From Sinanaerobacter sp. ZZT-01 (GTDB lineage: Bacteria > Bacillota > Clostridia > Peptostreptococcales > Anaerovoracaceae), in contig NZ_CP141728.1 of the NCBI RefSeq assembly GCF_035621135.1, positions 62,001 to 126,000 of the forward strand: a stretch of DNA of 64,000 bases, in the 5' to 3' direction. Shown one piece after another: positions 3,105-13,035 of the stretch; within the stretch, counting starts at the first letter, position 1, and each line of letters starts with the position of its first letter. The position numbers were made by a program, and so were the translations under genes. The notes beneath the pieces are model-generated. The model did not search any database, had not been told where the DNA came from, and saw only the letters and a list, made by a program, of their open reading frames with translations.

Positions 3105-3200
3105 TTCTTTCGGAAACTGGCTGTCATAAGCGTATGCTCTTAGACCCTATAGCTTTGCGTCACTGCTTTTCAACAGTTTTGCCTTTGTCGAGAAATTCTT
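3105..3200 (-). ncRNA. c-di-GMP-I (GEMM-I) riboswitch aptamer
   Basis: The minus strand shows the hallmarks of the class I c-di-GMP aptamer: GGCAAA, a hairpin with a GAAA tetraloop (CTGTT-GAAA-AGCAG), the invariant GACGCAAAGC, then GGGTCTAAG (tetraloop-receptor side), a variable hairpin and GACAGCC closing the second helix. Outer arms AATTTCT and AGAAAATT can form the basal stem. It lies between a GGDEF gene and flgC. The following terminator suggests c-di-GMP controls read-through into the flagellar genes, most likely switching them off, although direction is inferred. Confidence 0.92.
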
Positions 3201-3326: not shown

Positions 3327-4442
3327 CTATGTAAAAACAATCGTTCTGTCTTTTCCCAGTGCTTTTGCTTGATATAATGCATTATCTGCACGGTCGAACA
3401 AATCATCAGGACTGTCCCTTAAAAAATTCGATTGGGCAACACCGACGCTAAAAGTAACATTCTCATTATTCATCGAAGAAAAAGATAATCTTGAAAACTC
3501 TTTGCGAAAATAATCAATTTTTTCTGCTGCCGTTTCTTTCGTTGTCTCTCGAAATAAAATTGCAAACTCCTCACCTCCATAACGTGATGTAAATTCATTC
3601 TCCTCTGAAAAAAAGATACGAAGCATTTTAGATAGGCTTGTTAAGACCTCATTTCCGGTAGAGTGTCCATACGTATCGTTAATCTTTTTAAAATCATCCA
3701 AATCCATAATAGCAAGTGTTGTCGCTTTTCCCTTAGGTGTATCCTCATTTAATACTGTTTCAATATATGAAAAAAATGTATTTTGATTATAAAGACCGGT
3801 AAGAGGATCCTGCTTAACCTGTTCTCGCAGGCTCTCTTGCAGCCGATGACCGGATTTTAAATAAATCAAATTTTCTTTATTGTAGGAAATCAAAACTTGG
3901 CAGATCAGATAGGCTGCAAGCAAAACAGCATAAAATGCAGTTAAATTAATAAAAAAAAGTTCCAATGCCCCTCCTATATGAATAAAGGAACGCAGCCAGT
4001 TAACAGAAGAAAAAAACATACTGCTGAAAAAGACGATTCTCGTCTTTTTCGATTCACCAAATAATATTGTCACCATAATCGGTATGACATAGATTGCATA
4101 CACAATAAATACGGTATCGTGAAAATAGGTGATGACAAAACACATTACGATTCCAGTAAATAAAACCGCATCATTCTTTTGATCCGTAGTCCTATTTTTC
4201 GAATGTTGAAAGACAGATGAGAAAAAAACAGATACAAGATTAATGAATGAGGGAGTAAAAACATACTGCCTTAAATATTGGAATTCATTAACACTTTCGC
4301 TAAAAGCATATCGCATTTTTAAAACAGAAAAAACAGATAACTCGGTAAGAAACTCAATCAACACAATACCCCAAAAAAGGTTTGAGATCTGCATCCTTCT
4401 TCTCTCCAGAGTGTAATTCCACCTGTTATTCCGCTCCATCAT
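3327..4442 (-). CDS. Membrane-bound diguanylate cyclase (GGDEF)
   Basis: Predicted to condense two GTP into c-di-GMP. Residues 18-190 contain about six hydrophobic segments without a recognisable sensor fold. The GGDEF domain follows from about 212 (DPLTGLYNQ start motif, then MDLDDFKKINDTYGH with metal/GTP residues) and the active site is RYGGEEF with GGEEF at 289-293. No RxxD inhibitory site is seen five residues ahead of it, so product inhibition is probably weak. It overlaps the transglycosylase gene upstream by 17 bp, so the two are cotranscribed, and lies directly upstream of the c-di-GMP riboswitch on the same strand. Confidence 0.92.
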   Translation of the reverse strand: MMERNNRWNYTLERRRMQISNLFWGIVLIEFLTELSVFSVLKMRYAFSESVNEFQYLRQYVFTPSFINLVSVFFSSVFQHSKNRTTDQKNDAVLFTGIVMCFVITYFHDTVFIVYAIYVIPIMVTILFGESKKTRIVFFSSMFFSSVNWLRSFIHIGGALELFFINLTAFYAVLLAAYLICQVLISYNKENLIYLKSGHRLQESLREQVKQDPLTGLYNQNTFFSYIETVLNEDTPKGKATTLAIMDLDDFKKINDTYGHSTGNEVLTSLSKMLRIFFSEENEFTSRYGGEEFAILFRETTKETAAEKIDYFRKEFSRLSFSSMNNENVTFSVGVAQSNFLRDSPDDLFDRADNALYQAKALGKDRTIVFT

Positions 4443-5324: not shown

Positions 5325-6452
5325 TTAACTGAGACGACTTTTAAAATCTTCATATCCAAACGTCTTAATGACTTTTATATCTTCTGCTTCTCTTAATGCA
5401 ATAGATGGAAGATTCATGCCATTGAATGTATTATTCTTAACCATGGAATAAATCGCCATATCACAAAAACAGAGTTGATCGCCAATTTGCAATGGTTGAT
5501 CAAAGGAATAGTCCCCGATGAAATCTCCAGCTAAGCAGGTAGGTGCTCCTAAGCGGTACGTATATTTTTTCTCTCCCGGTTTACCCGCTCCAATTACTTC
5601 CGGACGATATGGCATCTCTAAAACATCCGGCATGTGACAAGCTGCCGATGTATCAACGATGGCAATCTCCATACCATTGTCAATTACATCCAATACCGTT
5701 GTTACTAAATACCCTGCATTCAGTGCGACTGCTTCACCGGGCTCCAAATAAACAGTCACACCATACCGTTCTTTCATACGATGAATCAATTGAACCAGCG
5801 TCTCAATATCATAATCCGAACGAGTAATATGATGTCCCCCACCGAAATTCAACCATTTCATTTTAGGGAGTATCTCTCCAAATTGTTTTTCAACTGCATC
5901 AATTGTTACTTTTAATGCATCTGAATTTTGTTCACATAATGTATGAAAATGAAGGCCACTTATACCCTCTGATTGATCTGAATGAAAATTCTTTTTTGTG
6001 ATCCCCATTCTGGAATAAGGAGAACAGGGATCATAAATTGCATGTCCTTCCTGCGTCGAGCATTCCGGGTTTATTCGAAGGCCGCACTCTTTTTTTAATT
6101 CCATCGCTTTCCGCTTATATTTCTCCCATTGAGAAAAAGAATTGAATATAATATGATCACAGATATTAAAAATCTCATCGATCTCTTCTTCTCTATAAGC
6201 TACTGAAAAAATATGATTTTCCAAACCCATATAGTCTGCTCCAAGCTTTGCTTCAAAAAGTCCGCTTGCTGTTGTTCCGCTAAGATACTTTCCGATCAGC
6301 GGATACACGGAAAACATGGAAAAGCATTTTTGTGCAAGTAAAATGCGGCAATCCGTTTCATCCATAACTTGTTTTAATATCTTTAAATTTTTCACCAGTC
6401 GTTCTTCATCAATTAAATAAAAAGGAGTAGCTATATTAAAATGTTTCATCAT
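5325..6452 (-). CDS. nspC: Carboxynorspermidine/carboxyspermidine decarboxylase
   Basis: PLP enzyme of the alanine-racemase fold that removes the carboxyl group from carboxy(nor)spermidine, giving (nor)spermidine. 375 residues, family length. The PLP lysine lies in LLAQKCFSMF near residue 42, followed by TTASGLFEAKLG; later motifs are LNFGGGHHITR (phosphate-binding glycines), EPGEAV, and CFCDMAIYSM near the C-terminus with the acidic and cysteine residues typical of this fold. It starts 14 bp after the carboxynorspermidine dehydrogenase gene, its usual partner. Last gene of the polyamine operon; RBS GGGAAGAG precedes a double ATG. Confidence 0.93.
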   Translation of the reverse strand: MMKHFNIATPFYLIDEERLVKNLKILKQVMDETDCRILLAQKCFSMFSVYPLIGKYLSGTTASGLFEAKLGADYMGLENHIFSVAYREEEIDEIFNICDHIIFNSFSQWEKYKRKAMELKKECGLRINPECSTQEGHAIYDPCSPYSRMGITKKNFHSDQSEGISGLHFHTLCEQNSDALKVTIDAVEKQFGEILPKMKWLNFGGGHHITRSDYDIETLVQLIHRMKERYGVTVYLEPGEAVALNAGYLVTTVLDVIDNGMEIAIVDTSAACHMPDVLEMPYRPEVIGAGKPGEKKYTYRLGAPTCLAGDFIGDYSFDQPLQIGDQLCFCDMAIYSMVKNNTFNGMNLPSIALREAEDIKVIKTFGYEDFKSRLS

Positions 6453-6465
6453 GATTCGCTCTTCC

Positions 6466-7668
6466 CTAATCCACTAATACCGGATTAAACTCTTCTTCCC
6501 ATGGAAGTCCCCATTGATTTAGCGCATCCATAAATGGATCGGGATCGAATTGCTCAATGTTAAAGACACCGTTTCCTTTCCATGTGCCGTTCATAATAAG
6601 CATCGCACCAATCATAGCCGGAACACCGGTGGTATAGCTGACTGCTTGTGAACCAACCTCTTTATAGCATTCCTGGTGGTCACAGATATTGTATAGATAG
6701 TAGGTTTTATCCTTTCCATCTTTCTTCCCTTTAAAAATACAGCCGATATTCGTTTTACCTACCGTTCTTGGTCCAAGACTGGATGGGTCCGGAAGCACAG
6801 CTTTTAAGAACTGAAGCGGCACAATCTGCTTTCCTTCAAACTCAATTGGTTCGATCGAAGTCATTCCAACATTTTCAAGGCACTTCAAGTGAGTAAGATA
6901 ACTTTGTCCAAAGGTCATAAAGAAACGAATTCTATGAATACCCTTAATATTGAGAGCTAATGATTCCAATTCTTCATGATGCAACAAATACATGTCTTTT
7001 TTCCCTACGCCTTTAAAGTTATATTCTCTTTTGATCTCCATCGGCTCTGTTTCAATCCATTTGCCATCTTCCCAATAGCTTCCATTGGCGGATACTTCAC
7101 GAATATTAATCTCAGGATTAAAGTTTGTTGCAAACGGATACCCATGATCGCCGCCATTGCAATCTAAAATATCGATTTCATTGATTTCATCAAAATGATG
7201 TTTCATTGCATATGCAGAAAATACACTGGTTACTCCCGGATCAAATCCACTACCGAGAAGAGCTGTAATCCCCGCTTCTTTGAATCGTTCCTGGTATGCC
7301 CATTGCCACTTATATTCAAATTTCGCCGTATCCAAAGGCTCATAATTTGCTGTATCAATGTAATGCGTCTTCGTTTCTAAGCATGCATCCATGATGGTTA
7401 AGTCTTGATATGGAAGTGCTAAATTCAATACAACCTTTGGTTTAAATTCATTGATTAATGCAACCAATTCCGCTACATTATCCGCATCTACCTGTGCCGT
7501 ATAAATCTTTGTTTTTGTCTTTCCTTCTAATTCACGCTTTAATTGGTCGCACTTACTTTTTGTACGGCTCGCGATCATAATTTCTTCAAAAACCGTACTG
7601 TTTTGACAGCATTTATGAATTGCGACACTCGCAACACCCCCACAGCCAATAATTAACGCCTTACCCAT
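6466..7668 (-). CDS. Carboxynorspermidine/carboxyspermidine dehydrogenase (saccharopine dehydrogenase family)
   Basis: Predicted to reductively join aspartate semialdehyde and a diamine (putrescine or diaminopropane) to give carboxyspermidine or carboxynorspermidine with NAD(P)H. 400 residues. Rossmann start ALIIGCGGVASVAIHKC at 4-20; central GSGFDPGVTSVFSAYAM and the conserved NGGDHGYPFATNF; late TTGVPAMIGAMLIMNG. Adjacent to the decarboxylase nspC, which fixes the assignment against lysine biosynthesis. Spacing to neighbours is 13-50 bp in one operon. Which diamine it uses cannot be read from the sequence. Confidence 0.92.
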   Translation of the reverse strand: MGKALIIGCGGVASVAIHKCCQNSTVFEEIMIASRTKSKCDQLKRELEGKTKTKIYTAQVDADNVAELVALINEFKPKVVLNLALPYQDLTIMDACLETKTHYIDTANYEPLDTAKFEYKWQWAYQERFKEAGITALLGSGFDPGVTSVFSAYAMKHHFDEINEIDILDCNGGDHGYPFATNFNPEINIREVSANGSYWEDGKWIETEPMEIKREYNFKGVGKKDMYLLHHEELESLALNIKGIHRIRFFMTFGQSYLTHLKCLENVGMTSIEPIEFEGKQIVPLQFLKAVLPDPSSLGPRTVGKTNIGCIFKGKKDGKDKTYYLYNICDHQECYKEVGSQAVSYTTGVPAMIGAMLIMNGTWKGNGVFNIEQFDPDPFMDALNQWGLPWEEEFNPVLVD

Positions 7669-7718
7669 TCTCTTTTCCTCCTTGTTCTTTCCTTTATTTT
7701 CTATATTTATAAAGTGAT

Positions 7719-8573
7719 TTATTTGCTCCCAACTGCCAGTAATAATTCTCGAAGTATTTTACAAGCAACCGCTGTAGACGCTCCACTAGGGTCATAAATC
7801 GGAGCTAATTCATTCACATCCATGCCGATAATGTCCAATGCAGCCACTTTTTTTATCGCCTCAAGCAATTCCATAAATGTAACACCACCCGCCTCTGGCG
7901 TTCCTGTTCCCGGGAAGACGGAAGGGTCCAGTACATCTAAATCAATGGTAAAATATACAGGATATCCCTGGCAGGCTGTTATTGCATCTTCTAAGCCTTC
8001 AAAAGAAAATTTGTTAAGGTTCGTGTGCTCTTTTGCCCATTGAAATTCCTCACGTTCTCCGCTTCGAATTCCAAATTGATGAATGCAGCCGTCACCTACC
8101 AAGTCCCATATCCTTCGAATTACAGAAGCATGTGACAAACGTTCACCCAAGTACGCTTCTCTCAAATCAGAATGCGCATCAAAATGAATGACACGAAGCT
8201 CTTTATAAGATTCAAACACCGCTTGTACTGCACCAAATGTCACTAGATGTTCTCCTCCAATCATGCAGGGAATTTTACTATCATGAATGATTTTATTCGT
8301 CGTTTCTTTAATTTGATCTAAAGCATTCAATGGATTTCCAAAGCTAAGTTCCAAGTCTCCACCGTCAAAAACATTGATTTCCTGTAAATCTTTATCCTGA
8401 TACGGACTATATGTTTCCAAACCAAAGGATTCACTTCGCATGGTTCTGCTTGCAAATCTCGTCCCGGGTCGAAACGAAGTTGTCGAATCAAACGGTGCTC
8501 CAAAGAGAACAATGCCCGCATCCTCGTACTCTGCATCGCATCCAATAAAGGTTTCTACGTTTTTATTCCACAT
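7719..8573 (-). CDS. speB: Agmatinase (ureohydrolase family)
   Basis: Mn-dependent hydrolysis of agmatine to putrescine and urea. 284 residues. The metal ligands are present in order: GGEHLVTFG (His), HFDAHSDLREAYLGERLSHAS (DAHSD) and FTIDLDVLDPSVFPGTGTPE (DxD). It overlaps speE by 11 bp. Being beside a biosynthetic arginine decarboxylase it is agmatinase rather than arginase. Because speE lies directly upstream, hydrolysis of N1-aminopropylagmatine, as in some thermophiles, is an alternative. Confidence 0.92.
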   Translation of the reverse strand: MWNKNVETFIGCDAEYEDAGIVLFGAPFDSTTSFRPGTRFASRTMRSESFGLETYSPYQDKDLQEINVFDGGDLELSFGNPLNALDQIKETTNKIIHDSKIPCMIGGEHLVTFGAVQAVFESYKELRVIHFDAHSDLREAYLGERLSHASVIRRIWDLVGDGCIHQFGIRSGEREEFQWAKEHTNLNKFSFEGLEDAITACQGYPVYFTIDLDVLDPSVFPGTGTPEAGGVTFMELLEAIKKVAALDIIGMDVNELAPIYDPSGASTAVACKILRELLLAVGSK

Positions 8574-9414
8574 CTTTTAAAAGCTCCTCTACATAGGTTG
8601 GCAATGCAAATGCCCCTAAATGAATCTGTGTATTATAATACTTTGTCTTTAATTCTTTTTTCTGCCATCTTTCTGGTAAGAAGTCTCGTGTCGGGTGATA
8701 TTTTTTCGAAGCAAATCCAAACAGCCAATGCCCGGAAGGATAAGTAGGAATATGTGCCTGATACACCTTGCTTATTTCAAAGCTTTCTACAATTCTCTTA
8801 TGTGCTCTTTGCATCGCAATCGCATCATCCGGATAAAACGGACTTTCATGTTGATTTACCATGATACCATCTTCCTTTAATGCTTTATAACAATTCCCAT
8901 AGAACTCTTTTGTGAAAAGTCCTTCCCCCGGACCAAAAGGATCGGTTGAATCTACGATAATCAAATCGTACTCTTGATTTTTTGTGCGAATGAATCGCAA
9001 TCCATCCTGATAATAGATTTTCACTCTTGGATCTTCCAAACAACAGGCAGTAACCGGTAAATATTTTTTACAAACCGCTACGACCTTTTCATCAATTTCA
9101 ACCATATCAATCTGCTTGATTGTCTCATACTTTGATAGCTCGCGAATGACACCGCCGTCACCTGCACCGATCACCAAGACAGTTTTCACATCCGGATGTA
9201 CTGCCATTGGAACATGTACAATCATTTCATGATAAATAAATTCATCCTTTTCCGTCAGCATCATGTATCCGTCTAAAGTTAAAAATCGTCCAAATTGCTT
9301 TGACTCAAACACATCAATTCTTTGAAATTCACTTTGCTCTGAATATAACTGCCGATTTACTTTTATAGAAAATTTCACATCATCGGTATGCCGTTCTGTA
9401 TACCACAAATCCAT
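8563..9414 (-). CDS. speE: Spermidine synthase (polyamine aminopropyltransferase)
   Basis: Transfers the aminopropyl group from decarboxylated SAM to putrescine, giving spermidine and methylthioadenosine. 283 residues, family length. Substrate-side motifs are LDGYMMLTEKDEFIYHEM (gate and diamine site), the SAM-binding VLVIGAGDGGVIREL, and the putrescine-binding DSTDPFGPGEGLFT. Starts 7 bp after speA with overlap into speB. The SAM loop reads GAGDGG rather than the common GGGDGG, a mild change. Works with the upstream speD. Confidence 0.94.
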   Translation of the reverse strand: MDLWYTERHTDDVKFSIKVNRQLYSEQSEFQRIDVFESKQFGRFLTLDGYMMLTEKDEFIYHEMIVHVPMAVHPDVKTVLVIGAGDGGVIRELSKYETIKQIDMVEIDEKVVAVCKKYLPVTACCLEDPRVKIYYQDGLRFIRTKNQEYDLIIVDSTDPFGPGEGLFTKEFYGNCYKALKEDGIMVNQHESPFYPDDAIAMQRAHKRIVESFEISKVYQAHIPTYPSGHWLFGFASKKYHPTRDFLPERWQKKELKTKYYNTQIHLGAFALPTYVEELLKDVE

Positions 9415-9420
9415 GTTTCC

Positions 9421-10875
9421 TTACTCCTTTCCAGCTATAACATTGATATGTTCTATCTTCATATCCTCAGGTCCGGTCATGAAACAACCTTTTCCTTTTG
9501 CATATTGAATATAATTCAATATATCATTTGTAATTTTCTCCCCCGGTGCCAAAATCGGAATACCGGGAGGGTAGCACATGACGAATTCTCCGCACACATA
9601 TCCAGCCGTTTCCATGATCGGCAGCGATTTTTTTTCTCCGTAAAAAGCGTTCTGCGGAGTTTCTGCCACAAGTGGACTCATATATTCGTGATCCAGCATC
9701 CCTGCTCTTTCTTTTTTATACCTGCGGCGTATTTCTGCAAGTGCGCTGACTAGACGTTCAATATCACGTTCCCGGTCTCCCACAGAGATATAAGCCAGTA
9801 TATTTCCAATATCTCCAAATTCTATCTGAATGCCGTACTCATCTCTTAGCAGATCGTAAACTTCAATCCCCGCCAACCCAACATTCAGTGTGTTTACTGA
9901 TAATTTAGTCACATCAAAATCATAAATAGAATCCTTATTGATTCTTTCACTGGAATAAGCATAATAATCGCCGATTTGATTGATTTCATTCCTTGCATAA
10001 TCAGCTAAATCTCTTACCTTTTTAAAGATTTCCTTTCCGTTTAAAGCTAAATTCTTTCTGGATACATCTAAACTGGACAACAATAAGTAAGAAGCGCTCG
10101 TTGTTTGTGTCAGATTAATGATTTGCCTTACATAGTCTGCATTCATTTCTTCCCCTAACAGTAAAAATGAACTTTGCGTTAAACTTCCACCGGATTTATG
10201 CATACTGACAGCCGCCATATCTGCTCCTGCCTCCATAGCGGAAATCGGAAGCTCCTCATCAAAATAAAAGTGTGTGCCATGCGCCTCGTCCGCCAATACC
10301 AACATCCCGTATCGATGCGCAAGCTCTACAATTCCTTTTATATTCGAGCAAATTCCATAATAAGTTGGATTGTTTACTAAAACAGCTTTTGCATCCGGAT
10401 TCTCTAAGATGGTTTTTTCCAGTTCACTCAAACGCATTCCTAAAGATATGCCAAGCTCTTCATCAATATCCGGATTGACATAGATCGGAGTTGCACCACT
10501 TAAAATTAATGCATTGATTGCACTTCGATGCACATTTCTCGGCATGATAATCTTCTCGCCTGACTTACAGGCAGCAAAAACCATAGTCTGGACAGAGGAA
10601 GTGGTTCCTCCTACCATAAAAAAGGCATGTGCTGCACCAAACGCATCTGCTGCAAGTCTTTCCGCTTCGGAAATAACGGAAACCGGATGGCATAAATTAT
10701 CAAGCGGCTTCATGGAATTTACATCAACCGACATACATTTTTCGCCTAGAAAATCAGTCAGTTCCAAGTTTCCCTTTCCTCTTTTATGCCCAGGTACATC
10801 AAATGGTACAATCCGATCTTTTTTAAATTTCTGTAAAGCCTCAAAAATTGGCATATGCCTTTGATCCAAATGCAT
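9421..10875 (-). CDS. speA: Arginine decarboxylase, Orn/Lys/Arg decarboxylase family (short form)
   Basis: PLP-dependent decarboxylase of the aminotransferase fold, 484 residues, like the Bacillus SpeA type. Motifs: FDVPGHKRGKGN near the N-terminus, GGTTSSVQTMVFAA, LADEAHGTHFYF and the PLP lysine in VSMHKSGGSLTQSS; then the small C-terminal domain with PPGIPILAPGE. Homologues act on arginine, ornithine or lysine; arginine is favoured because agmatinase is in the same operon. GGGAGGTG precedes the ATG. Arginine to agmatine starts the putrescine branch of the operon. Confidence 0.9.
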   Translation of the reverse strand: MHLDQRHMPIFEALQKFKKDRIVPFDVPGHKRGKGNLELTDFLGEKCMSVDVNSMKPLDNLCHPVSVISEAERLAADAFGAAHAFFMVGGTTSSVQTMVFAACKSGEKIIMPRNVHRSAINALILSGATPIYVNPDIDEELGISLGMRLSELEKTILENPDAKAVLVNNPTYYGICSNIKGIVELAHRYGMLVLADEAHGTHFYFDEELPISAMEAGADMAAVSMHKSGGSLTQSSFLLLGEEMNADYVRQIINLTQTTSASYLLLSSLDVSRKNLALNGKEIFKKVRDLADYARNEINQIGDYYAYSSERINKDSIYDFDVTKLSVNTLNVGLAGIEVYDLLRDEYGIQIEFGDIGNILAYISVGDRERDIERLVSALAEIRRRYKKERAGMLDHEYMSPLVAETPQNAFYGEKKSLPIMETAGYVCGEFVMCYPPGIPILAPGEKITNDILNYIQYAKGKGCFMTGPEDMKIEHINVIAGKE

Positions 10876-10895
10876 ATCTTACACCTCCCTACTTT

Positions 10896-11705
10896 CTAAT
10901 CATAAATATTACTTCCAGTAAAAATCTCTATCATTTCCCGCCTTAGACTATTGGTAATATCCAATCTTGTTTTTGGGGGTATTTCGTATACGTCTGTTTT
11001 AAATAGATAATTCTTTAAATCAATCTCCTTAATCAGCATCTTTGTATGAAAAAGATTGGATTGATACACATTAATGTCAATGGCATCATATTTTTTCAGC
11101 GTTTTATCATCAATATAATCTTGAATTGAAGTCATGCTTTGATCCATAAAAAGTTTTTTACCTTCAATATCTCTTGTAAATCCACGAACACGATAATCCA
11201 TGGTTATGATATCCGAATCAAAGCTTTGAATTAAATAATCTAATGTAGACAAAGGTGTGATTTCACCGCAGGTAGCTACATCGATATCCACACGAAATGT
11301 CGCGATGCATGTTCCTGGGTGATATTCCGGATAAGTGTGTACCGTTACATGGCTCTTATCCAAGTGTGCAAGAACAGTTTCACCCTTTGTTATGATTTCT
11401 TCTTCAACGCACTTACATGAACCCGAGCGAACCATTTGTTCTTCAGCAAGCAAAATAGTAACGCTCGCTCCTTGCGGCTCATAATCCTGTTTTGAAACAT
11501 TTAATACATGCGCACCTATCATTTCGGATACGTGGTAAAGTATCTTTGTTAAACGATCGGAATTATACTGCTCATCAATATAGGCAATATAGTCTTTTTG
11601 TTCTCGTTCGCTCTTTGCATAGCAGACATCATAAATATTAAAACTCAATGATTTGGTTAAATTATTAAATCCATATAATCGCAATTTGTCATTCATTTTT
11701 TTCAT
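10896..11705 (-). CDS. speD: S-adenosylmethionine decarboxylase proenzyme (long bacterial form)
   Basis: Makes decarboxylated SAM, the aminopropyl donor for SpeE. 269 residues, the size of the E. coli-like class. The chain self-cleaves to create a pyruvoyl group at the serine of LDKSHVTVHTYPE, followed by PGTCIATFRVDIDVATCGEITP, which includes catalytic Cys. First gene of the operon, 21 bp ahead of speA. AAGGATGAGGA lies before the ATG at 11705; an ATG three codons in (11696) is possible. The start is only about 50 nt after the leader terminator, so expression should depend on read-through. Confidence 0.94.
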   Translation of the reverse strand: MKKMNDKLRLYGFNNLTKSLSFNIYDVCYAKSEREQKDYIAYIDEQYNSDRLTKILYHVSEMIGAHVLNVSKQDYEPQGASVTILLAEEQMVRSGSCKCVEEEIITKGETVLAHLDKSHVTVHTYPEYHPGTCIATFRVDIDVATCGEITPLSTLDYLIQSFDSDIITMDYRVRGFTRDIEGKKLFMDQSMTSIQDYIDDKTLKKYDAIDINVYQSNLFHTKMLIKEIDLKNYLFKTDVYEIPPKTRLDITNSLRREMIEIFTGSNIYD

Positions 11706-11755
11706 TCCTCATCCTTATCGTTCCCAAGATATCCGCAAACATTTTGATAAATATT

Positions 11756-11805
11756 AAAAAAACTCAAGCTGAATGATCATTTTTAACATCATTACACTTG
11801 AGTTT
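11756..11805 (-). terminator. Intrinsic terminator just before speD (likely attenuator)
   Basis: A 9-bp perfect stem (AAACTCAAG at 11760-11768 with CTTGAGTTT at 11797-11805), with a second internal stem AATGAT/ATCATT, is followed on the minus strand by seven T. Only about 50 nt then remain before the speD start and I see no full promoter in them. The element is therefore positioned as a conditional terminator for the polyamine operon. Confidence 0.85.
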
Positions 11806-12136
11806 CAATACTAAAATTGTTTTATTTCAATGCAAAGCTCTATTTGCATTTTATTTATTCAATATCAGATTAGAGTCTATATAGCAAGAATTACTTTTAC
11901 TACTCTTATTGATCGTTTCACAAGTGTGATGTGCCTTCGGGCACACGGTTGTTTAGTAACCAACTCAATGTTAAATCATTGTATTCAACATCAACTTATA
12001 AAATTTGAGCAATGTACTCAATCAATAAGGCAACGAAGTTGCCAATTCGGCATTTGACCTGGCTGTCCGCATGGCCATGATTCCCAAAAATGGAAATAGT
12101 CAAAAATTCTCGCAAAAACCTCTAACTGTTTTTGCT
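11757..12136 (-). ncRNA. Structured leader RNA of the polyamine operon (no family recognised)
   Basis: The minus-strand transcript from the promoter at 12143-12171 to the terminator folds into many perfect hairpins. A 9-bp outer helix (12021-12029 with 11905-11913) encloses four arms: 12005-12009/12017-12021, an 8-bp stem 11984-11991/11968-11975, 11961-11964/11948-11951, and a 7-bp stem with a CGAA loop (11929-11946). Upstream are a 6-bp hairpin (12029-12043) and a perfect 8-bp stem right at the 5' end (12112-12119/12128-12135). An 18-codon ORF (12022-12078) overlaps these. Position before speD and the terminator suggest a cis-regulator responding to SAM, a polyamine or arginine, but a free-standing RNA is possible. 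It does not match riboswitch consensus sequences I know. Confidence 0.6.
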
Positions 12137-12142
12137 TTTCCA

Positions 12143-12171
12143 ATTATATATCAGCTTATTTTAAAATGCAA
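12143..12171 (-). promoter_or_regulatory. Sigma-A type promoter of the speD leader
   Basis: Minus strand TTGCAT (12166-12171), 17-bp spacer, TATAAT (12143-12148). The predicted start near 12136 falls at the foot of the first perfect 8-bp hairpin of the leader. Confidence 0.75.
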
Positions 12172-12225
12172 CTATTATTTAATATGTAATCTTATTTTCA
12201 TTTTCCTGACACACATTTTCTATCA

Positions 12226-13035
12226 TCACACCAATTCGTCTCCGTTTTGCTGCATCAGATATGCAACCGCAGCCTCTGTGATGCGCTCTGCAGCCCTTTC
12301 CTGATATTCGTCGGAAACAATCAACTTCCAATCTTCTGGATTTGTAACATAACCGATTTCGATCAAGACAGCTGCGACTTCCGTTTGACGTAAGACCTGC
12401 AAGTCTGTATCCGCTACAATCCCTCGACTTATGATCTGCGTGTCCGCTGCAATTTTCTCTTCTATTTTTTTTGCTAAAATATAGCTTTCTTCTCCTCCGA
12501 TTGTTTTCTTTTCGTTATACCATATACCCATTCCTCTGACACTGCTGTCAGTAAAGGAATTTTGATGAATGCTTATAAATAGATCCGGATTTTCTTTTTT
12601 TGCCATAGCCACCCGCGCATCTCGTGATAAATACGTATCATCATTTCGAGTCATAAAGACCCTTACTCCTTTTTTTTCTAATTTTTTTTGTATCTTAAGC
12701 GTAATTTGTAAATTCAATTCTTTTTCTAAAATAGCTCCTGCATCCGTTCCACAGTCATTTCCGCCATGTCCAGCATCGAGCATCACTGTCCCCAGCAAAT
12801 CATCATTTAAATCCCATAAGTCTTCAAAAACATGGCTTGTCCCACTCTCTTTTCCAATGAAACCAGAATGAATCATTACACTTCGAAAAAAGAAAAGCGT
12901 TAAAACACTGACTGCAAAAAAAATCAATTTTTTCTGTAGCCTTTTTCTTTTTATCCTTTTTCTTTTTAACCGTTCTCTGCGAAGCTGCCTGCGTTGACTC
13001 GGTTCTAAATTTTCTATCGATGGCTGCATAGACAT
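12226..13035 (-). CDS. N-acetylmuramoyl-L-alanine amidase (Amidase_3, CwlD-like)
   Basis: Zn-dependent amidase that cuts the amide between muramic acid and the stem peptide. 269 residues. A very basic N-terminus (residues 15-37, RRQLRRERLKRKR and similar) precedes a single membrane anchor near 38-56. The catalytic domain starts at VMLDAGHGGNDCG (Zn His), then EKELNLQITLKI (Glu ligand), FISIHQNSF (His) and AAVLIEIGYVTN (catalytic Glu). Resembles the spore-cortex amidase CwlD in size and anchor, but the sporulation role is inference. Single gene; nothing else recognised between it and 13284. Confidence 0.9.
   Translation of the reverse strand: MSMQPSIENLEPSQRRQLRRERLKRKRIKRKRLQKKLIFFAVSVLTLFFFRSVMIHSGFIGKESGTSHVFEDLWDLNDDLLGTVMLDAGHGGNDCGTDAGAILEKELNLQITLKIQKKLEKKGVRVFMTRNDDTYLSRDARVAMAKKENPDLFISIHQNSFTDSSVRGMGIWYNEKKTIGGEESYILAKKIEEKIAADTQIISRGIVADTDLQVLRQTEVAAVLIEIGYVTNPEDWKLIVSDEYQERAAERITEAAVAYLMQQNGDELV

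Follow-up and report, generated by a model that had tools for sequence, protein, structure and literature searches.

The long untranslated leader that precedes speD in the window (the whole stretch of 64,000 nucleotides of Sinanaerobacter sp. ZZT-01 that was analysed) is probably a cis-acting transcription attenuator, most likely an OFF-type polyamine riboswitch, for which we infer ligand binding, the identity of the ligand and the direction of switching. The RNA is real, conserved and already catalogued, if poorly described, and is a strong candidate polyamine riboswitch of wide distribution. The two models used detect it in 18 and 24 of 398 genomes sampled across the phylum, or about 5-6%. 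If polyamine binding is true, the element would rank as a major polyamine sensor in gut and soil bacteria, and the corresponding Rfam 'sRNA' entry would be recast as a leader.

The leader is read from the minus strand. A promoter was read from the sequence at 12143..12171, comprising TTGCAT (12171-12166), a 17-nt spacer and TATAAT (12148-12143), with transcription predicted to start near 12136. The -10 element is perfect, whereas the -35 element matches TTGACA at three of six positions; the term near-consensus, used in the earlier note, was therefore generous, and for the same reason the pair is absent from the list returned by a promoter scan of the leader. The 8-bp hairpin that had been described at the 5' end is present, GCAAAAAC/GTTTTTGC with an 8-nt loop being found by the hairpin scan at 12112..12135. 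It recurs weakly in relatives (z below -1 in 39 of 84 upstream stretches, mean z of -0.84 against mononucleotide shuffles) and was dropped as a candidate conserved part. Together with the GAGAATTTTT that follows, this hairpin scores as terminator-like in the scan and might be an early stop or merely a stabilising cap. At the other end, sequence reading and folding place an intrinsic terminator at 11757..11807, in which ACTCAAG/CTTGAGT (11803-11797/11768-11762) lies inside a longer stem followed by seven T, bearing out the proposal of a terminator with a T-run ahead of speD; the simple hairpin scan, whose loop limit is 8, omits it. Three weak Rfam matches on the terminator (SNORD69, bglG-cis-reg and L17DE; E up to 5) are far below their cut-offs and were taken as chance. 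The start of speD is at 11705 or shortly after, and the promoter scan finds no promoter-like site on the minus strand from 11756 to 11706, in agreement with the suggestion that speD has no promoter of its own. One 9-of-12 promoter-like site falls inside the terminator (11808-11779), and sites of this kind number 4 against 3.4 in shuffles.

Behind the leader, an operon-like run of six minus-strand genes (5325-11705) holds the SpeD/SpeE and the carboxynorspermidine routes to spermidine. The genes comprise speD, encoding S-adenosylmethionine decarboxylase (10896..11705; TIGR03331, 410 bits, cut-off 255.8), a short-form Orn/Lys/Arg decarboxylase (9421..10875; NCBIfam matches all below cut-offs, similar genes in relatives matching Pfam OKR_DC_1), speE, encoding spermidine synthase (8563..9414; NF002010 and TIGR00417 over cut-off), speB, encoding agmatinase (7719..8573; TIGR01230 over cut-off), a carboxynorspermidine dehydrogenase/synthase-like gene (6466..7668; NF043000, 417 bits, below the cut-off of 800) and nspC, encoding carboxynorspermidine decarboxylase (5325..6452; TIGR01047, 499 bits, cut-off 409).

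The 5' domain of the leader (12102-12047, minus strand) matches the Rfam family RF02440, 'SpF59 sRNA (ldcC RNA)', over the full model (positions 1-54 of 54) and scores 56.5 bits where the gathering threshold is 37.2. The earlier note had missed this match and regarded the leader as fitting no known consensus, which is not so; it was right that SAM, SAH, purine, TPP and THF families do not fit, as none of these gave an Rfam match. RF02440 is the only family at gathering score in the leader, T-box and other Rfam cis-regulators giving no match at that threshold, and SAM-I-like, SAH, purine, TPP and T-box identities were rejected for want of an Rfam match. The sole match is not to an unrelated RNA, since the family is found before polyamine genes: all 18 genomes of the phylum sample that carry it, the source genome included, have polyamine genes in its neighbourhood. 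Rfam types the family as 'Gene; sRNA' with a model of 54 nt. In contrast, the element conserved in relatives measures ~230 nt (12103-11872), extending ~175 nt beyond the Rfam part with further helices, and is followed by the terminator. RF02440 has one copy in the source genome and was detected in 3 of 247 genomes at family level and in 18 of 398 at phylum level, while a pattern scan of named genomes gave at least 118 loci. Among the matches listed are Paenibacillus, Bacillus, Neobacillus, Blautia, Faecalibacterium, Flavonifractor, Acidaminococcus and Phascolarctobacterium, together with one Synergistaceae bin and one spirochaete bin. An 'ldcC RNA motif' was reportedly presented as a cis-regulatory candidate by Weinberg and colleagues in a 2017 survey of 224 candidate RNAs, to which we presume the name 'ldcC RNA' can be traced.

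Structural conservation was evaluated in a set of 138 loci, reduced to 137 (the window's own included) by removal of L018, which has no anchor. Of the 137, 113 had a 3' end that could be recognised together with sufficient sequence upstream, and 85 of the 113 were non-redundant; 11 of the 85 were removed for length, the window and L002 were restored, and L059, L068, L088, L095 and L106 were removed by hand as irregular, leaving the 71 rows of alignment A1. Because loci L021-L138 were retrieved with a 20-base pattern from domain I, matched exactly, and alignment rows were chosen by near match to GCTATATAGACTCT, conservation of domain I, of GCTATATAGACTCT and hence of the 3' strands of P8 and P9 is partly by construction. 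Over the 57 proposed pairs, 91.1% of 3934 cells are standard pairs, compared with 86.4% (sd 0.2) in shuffled alignments and 33.0-45.2% when strands were slid by one to three columns. Double changes occupy 220 cells (81.6 shuffled, 22-95 slid) and affect 27 of the 57 pairs (16.8 shuffled, 9-22 slid). The latter count is the weakest measure when taken alone, and six of the 27 pairs sit in the poorly aligned P7. None of 500 shuffles, which do not keep relatedness, reached the alignment in any of five measures. Compensatory changes in homologous leaders, to which the earlier note had looked for a verdict on the fold, are thus present. In these selected rows, and against shuffles that ignore relatedness, the 5' untranslated region displays a conserved, covarying, aptamer-like fold. 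P4, P6 and P8 hardly vary, with double changes in 0, 1 and 0 pairs, respectively, and covariation consequently supports them little; P4 and P8 are conserved rather than proven by covariation.

The fold comprises three domains, all on the minus strand. Domain I (12047..12102), which is the RF02440 match, consists of P1 (12102-12098/12059-12055; 98.0% of cells paired, double changes in one pair) and P2 (12097-12092/12085-12080; 93.7%, five pairs) and carries the conserved GGCCATGCGGACAGCC and TGCCGA. It is followed by the P3 hairpin, GGCAAC/GTTGCC (12029..12043), with 90.5% of cells paired and double changes in all six pairs. Domain II is enclosed by the outer helix P4, TTATTGAT/GTCAATAA (11906..12028, pairing 12028-12021 with 11913-11906), which is 97.5% paired with double changes in no pair. 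The 9-bp outer helix originally described, CTTATTGAT/ATCAATAAG (12029-12021/11913-11905), does exist in the sequence, but relatives keep only the P4 portion, which is nearly invariant, and the end bases are also claimed by neighbouring helices. Within P4 lie the P5 hairpin, TGAG/CTCA (12006..12020; 92.2% paired, double changes in three of four pairs), and the core helix P6, TTTTATAAGT/ACTTGTGAAA (11916..12003, pairing 12003-11994 with 11925-11916), whose 3' strand is the proposed antiterminator strand; P6 has 97.8% of cells paired in nine pairs and 98.6% in the tenth, with a double change in one pair. The P6a hairpin, GGTT/AACC (11947..11961), is 85.1% paired with double changes in two of five pairs, and P7, TGTGCC/GGCACA (11930..11945), is a variable, poorly aligned arm with 43-70% of cells paired and double changes in six pairs. 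Domain III (11873..11905), defined by the alignment of relatives, comprises P8, GAGT/ACTC (11905-11902/11876-11873; 100% paired, no double changes), and P9, AGTA/TGCT (11895-11892/11886-11883; 97.8% paired, double changes in three of four pairs). Its 3' end, GCTATATAGACTCT, is intact or differs at a single position in 110 of the 137 loci, while in the other 27 it is absent or more divergent, or the available stretch ends early. Some loci are without the P5-P7 arms.

Folding of the isolated leader gives a partial picture of this arrangement. The stretch 11753-12134 folds at -107.5 kcal/mol, compared with -75.2 (sd 6) for 100 dinucleotide shuffles (z of -5.4, none as good), under an energy model that leaves out ligand, Mg2+ and pseudoknots. 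Its minimum-energy fold contains P2, P4, P5 and P7, and P6 appears in the centroid fold. P1, P3, P6, P8 and P9 are absent from the minimum-energy structure, and the conserved fold therefore rests on the comparison of relatives.

An attenuator of this kind might be real and yet be switched by an RNA-binding protein, or by a ribosome on a leader peptide, with no small molecule involved. We consider this improbable. Proteins and polyamine-sensitive leader peptides are known, in principle, to bring about attenuation, the ligand of the present leader is itself deduced, and 26 of 85 leaders contain an open reading frame of at least 8 codons preceded by a Shine-Dalgarno sequence. These frames, however, share no position, the commonest start position being seen three times, and the lengths of arms P2, P3, P5 and P7 vary freely among relatives, which together make a conserved peptide unlikely; a leader peptide was rejected since no frame occupies a shared position in the 85 leaders. 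The 42 invariant columns over 71 sequences, ~30 of them outside the search-pattern stretch, are as for an aptamer, and the matches listed extend over clostridia, bacilli, Negativicutes, a synergistete and a spirochaete bin. All of these observations would nevertheless be compatible with a bound protein.

The switch itself can be proposed from a complementarity between the core and the terminator. ACACTTG (11921..11927, minus strand), which overlaps the 3' strand of P6, is a 7-bp complement of CAAGTGT (11794..11800, minus strand), located inside the 5' arm of the terminator. P6 and the antiterminator would therefore be mutually exclusive. When polyamine is scarce, ACACTTG would pair with CAAGTGT, the resulting antiterminator would block the terminator and the six-gene spermidine operon would be transcribed. 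At high levels of the end product, for which spermidine is the first choice and a close polyamine the next, the ligand would stabilise the folded core P1-P9, in which P6 would capture ACTTGTGAAA, leaving the terminator arm free, and transcription would halt ~383 nt from the start. Calculated folds of the window are consistent with such a scheme: before the 3' arm of the terminator is made, the antiterminator fold (-90.9) and the P6 fold (-90.0) are about equal, while with the terminator complete the terminator folds reach -107.5 (-106.8 with P6) against -98.2 for the antiterminator.

A usable terminator lies between the RNA and the gene in 110 of the 137 loci. Dropping the other 27 and 36 redundant loci of the 110 left 74 non-redundant loci, in which the duplex of the P6 3' strand with its own terminator arm has a mean of -10.11 kcal/mol. 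Dinucleotide-shuffled arms give -6.07 (sd 0.23), and the arms of 101 further terminators in these loci give -5.36 (p of 4e-22). With arms swapped between loci the mean was -9.04, or -9.30 when swaps were kept within gene classes; none of 2000 permutations matched the true pairing in either case. The word NCA[AG]G is present in 63 of the 74 cognate arms and in 21 of the 101 other arms. Co-evolution of arm and P6 beyond relatedness did not reach significance: the cognate arm was better than that of the most similar locus in 41 cases, worse in 31 and equal in two of the 74 (p of 0.29; Wilcoxon 0.10). In 27 of the 74 loci the best pairing with the arm is made by a part of the core outside ACTTGTG. 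When 14 core positions were followed in 70 of the 74 loci, two paired more with cognate than with dealt-out arms (3 and 1 of 2000 shuffles as high) and the remaining ones showed no excess pairing, in a control that ignores relatedness. The earlier description of an attenuator-like structured leader before a polyamine operon is supported.

The nature of the genes behind the RNA points to the sensed molecule. An open reading frame of at least 60 residues follows the element within the available sequence in 129 of the 137 loci and was assigned to speD in 47, a decarboxylase in 39, a carboxynorspermidine-dehydrogenase-like gene in 27 and a PotA-like gene in 16 (10 by signature and 6 named by eye), taking the first frame with a polyamine signature within 900 nt or else the longest, so that an unrelated frame may be skipped. 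Pfam counts for the 129 proteins are 45 for AdoMet_dc, 38 for OKR_DC_1, 27 for Sacchrp_dh_NADP and 16 for ABC_tran, a total of 126 if no overlap among the four families is assumed, the other three proteins being assumed to be short fragments. Among the single proteins tested, two PotA-like proteins pass the NCBIfam potA cut-off (TIGR01187), and the protein of L034 scores 418 bits with the carboxynorspermidine synthase model against a cut-off of 800 and is named by likeness. In L085 a P-II-like frame, passed over by this assignment, lies between the leader and the potA-like gene; it is the sole unrelated-looking gene noticed directly behind the RNA, with a script that searched for polyamine signatures.

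Since a single RNA is found ahead of speD, of decarboxylases, of carboxynorspermidine-route genes and of PotA-like uptake genes, an end-product polyamine is the expected common signal, and the combination in the window operon of speD/speE with the carboxynorspermidine pair, together with the two targets that pass the potA cut-off, leads to the same expectation. Gene context thus suggests an end-product polyamine, spermidine first. Of the candidates originally put forward, spermidine fits every context, as would another end-product polyamine, while decarboxylated SAM and arginine fit poorly because the RNA also precedes genes of the carboxynorspermidine route and of transporters. A riboswitch for a ligand other than the end product (arginine, agmatine, SAM, decarboxylated SAM or MTA) is accordingly regarded as unlikely. 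Such a ligand would suit the two commonest targets, speD and the Orn/Lys/Arg decarboxylases, and SP0916, behind the pneumococcal member, is an arginine decarboxylase (PMC7990898). SAM-derived compounds and arginine would, however, be unnatural signals at the 27 carboxynorspermidine-dehydrogenase-like and 16 PotA-like loci. The known spermidine riboswitch is described as unresponsive to SAM or MTA (PMC10853860), which shows only that a polyamine sensor of such a layout exists.

The association of the polyamine riboswitch candidate with these genes was also observed with a model that is without the Rfam part. R1, a covariance model of P4-P9 only (126 positions), was built on 37 of the 71 rows, 8 being dropped first and 26 more by hand. 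It matches 24 of 398 phylum genomes, among them all 18 RF02440 genomes, where the element precedes speD, decarboxylase or carboxynorspermidine-dehydrogenase-like genes; in the six genomes not reported by RF02440 the element always lies before speD or a decarboxylase. In all 24 genomes it is upstream of a polyamine gene on the same strand. This comparison is only partly independent, since rows of the model came from 9 of the 18 RF02440 genomes, and 5 of the remaining 9 belong to a genus that contributed a row. Four loci matched by R1 and not by RF02440 (L149, L150, L160 and L161), located before decarboxylase or speD genes, retain mere scraps of domain I, namely ACGGACA in L150 and L160 and TGCCG in L150 and L161; L150 has an apparently different P1 stem. 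L159 and L162, which come from two genomes of one genus and lie ahead of speD, lack the 5' half, including domain I and the 5' strand of P6, but retain ACTTGTGAA, P8/P9 and an arm with CGCAAGTG.

A trans-acting small RNA, for which the position before polyamine genes would be secondary, is highly improbable despite the 'Gene; sRNA' type of RF02440 and the listing of the pneumococcal RNA as sRNA F59/srn235 (PMC3395615, PMC12323649), given the constant placement in the 24 R1 genomes, the usable terminator that separates RNA and gene at 110 of the 137 loci and the location of F59 between SP0915 and SP0916 (PMC3395615), where a terminated leader could resemble an sRNA. In PMC3395615, F59 is given as 82 nt and is equated with srn235 of another study, for which the mutant table lists a lung fitness of 0.05, while in a later list the coordinates of srn235/F59 span 327 nt (PMC12323649). 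Leader lengths predicted by a crude -10 search in 67 loci have a median of 382 nt (10-90% range of 318-432), from which we infer that the F59/srn235 'sRNA' is a terminated leader.

The closest known system is the spermidine riboswitch of Salvail et al. (2023; PMC10853860), a four-stem variant of SAM-I aligned from 13 representatives. It is similar to the present leader in its association with polyamine genes, including ldcC; it also has a terminator/antiterminator arrangement and turns OFF on spermidine, both of which are proposed for the leader. In contrast, the leader has another fold, and identity with the SAM-I four-stem aptamer was rejected, as no SAM riboswitch match was found in 11700-12250 at E up to 5. 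Its authors state that no definitive spermidine riboswitch had been shown earlier and that additional polyamine classes are sure to be discovered (PMC10853860). The potE, odc1 and speF RNA motifs are likewise structured RNAs before polyamine genes (PMC8632094, PMC11477304). Of these, potE is restricted to Veillonella and environmental samples, whereas the descriptions of odc1 and speF come from alphaproteobacteria, a report of speF in C. difficile being doubted, and odc1 contains an upstream open reading frame. The leader itself matches no Rfam family other than RF02440 at gathering score. In work on S. agalactiae, mention is made of an attenuator structure reported in the potABCD leaders of Haemophilus somnus and Pasteurella (PMC8744998). 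A literature search on ldcC RNA, SpF59, srn235 and polyamine riboswitches found no paper calling this RNA a polyamine switch; the family is thus already catalogued as RF02440, and its description as a polyamine switch was not found in the literature searched. We are inclined to believe, with somewhat less assurance than for the attenuator itself, that the RNA forms a second polyamine riboswitch class that has no relation to the SAM-I variant and is present in far more bacteria, with an aptamer of ~230 nt of which Rfam holds the first 54, controlling both spermidine routes and uptake, and with pneumococcal F59/srn235 as its terminated leader.

Elsewhere in the window, a c-di-GMP-I riboswitch (RF01051, 80.2 bits) was identified at 3109-3193 on the minus strand. 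It sits between the gene for a GGDEF protein (3327-4442) and flgC (2431-2925), all on the same strand, and the flagellar genes there are therefore probably under c-di-GMP control.
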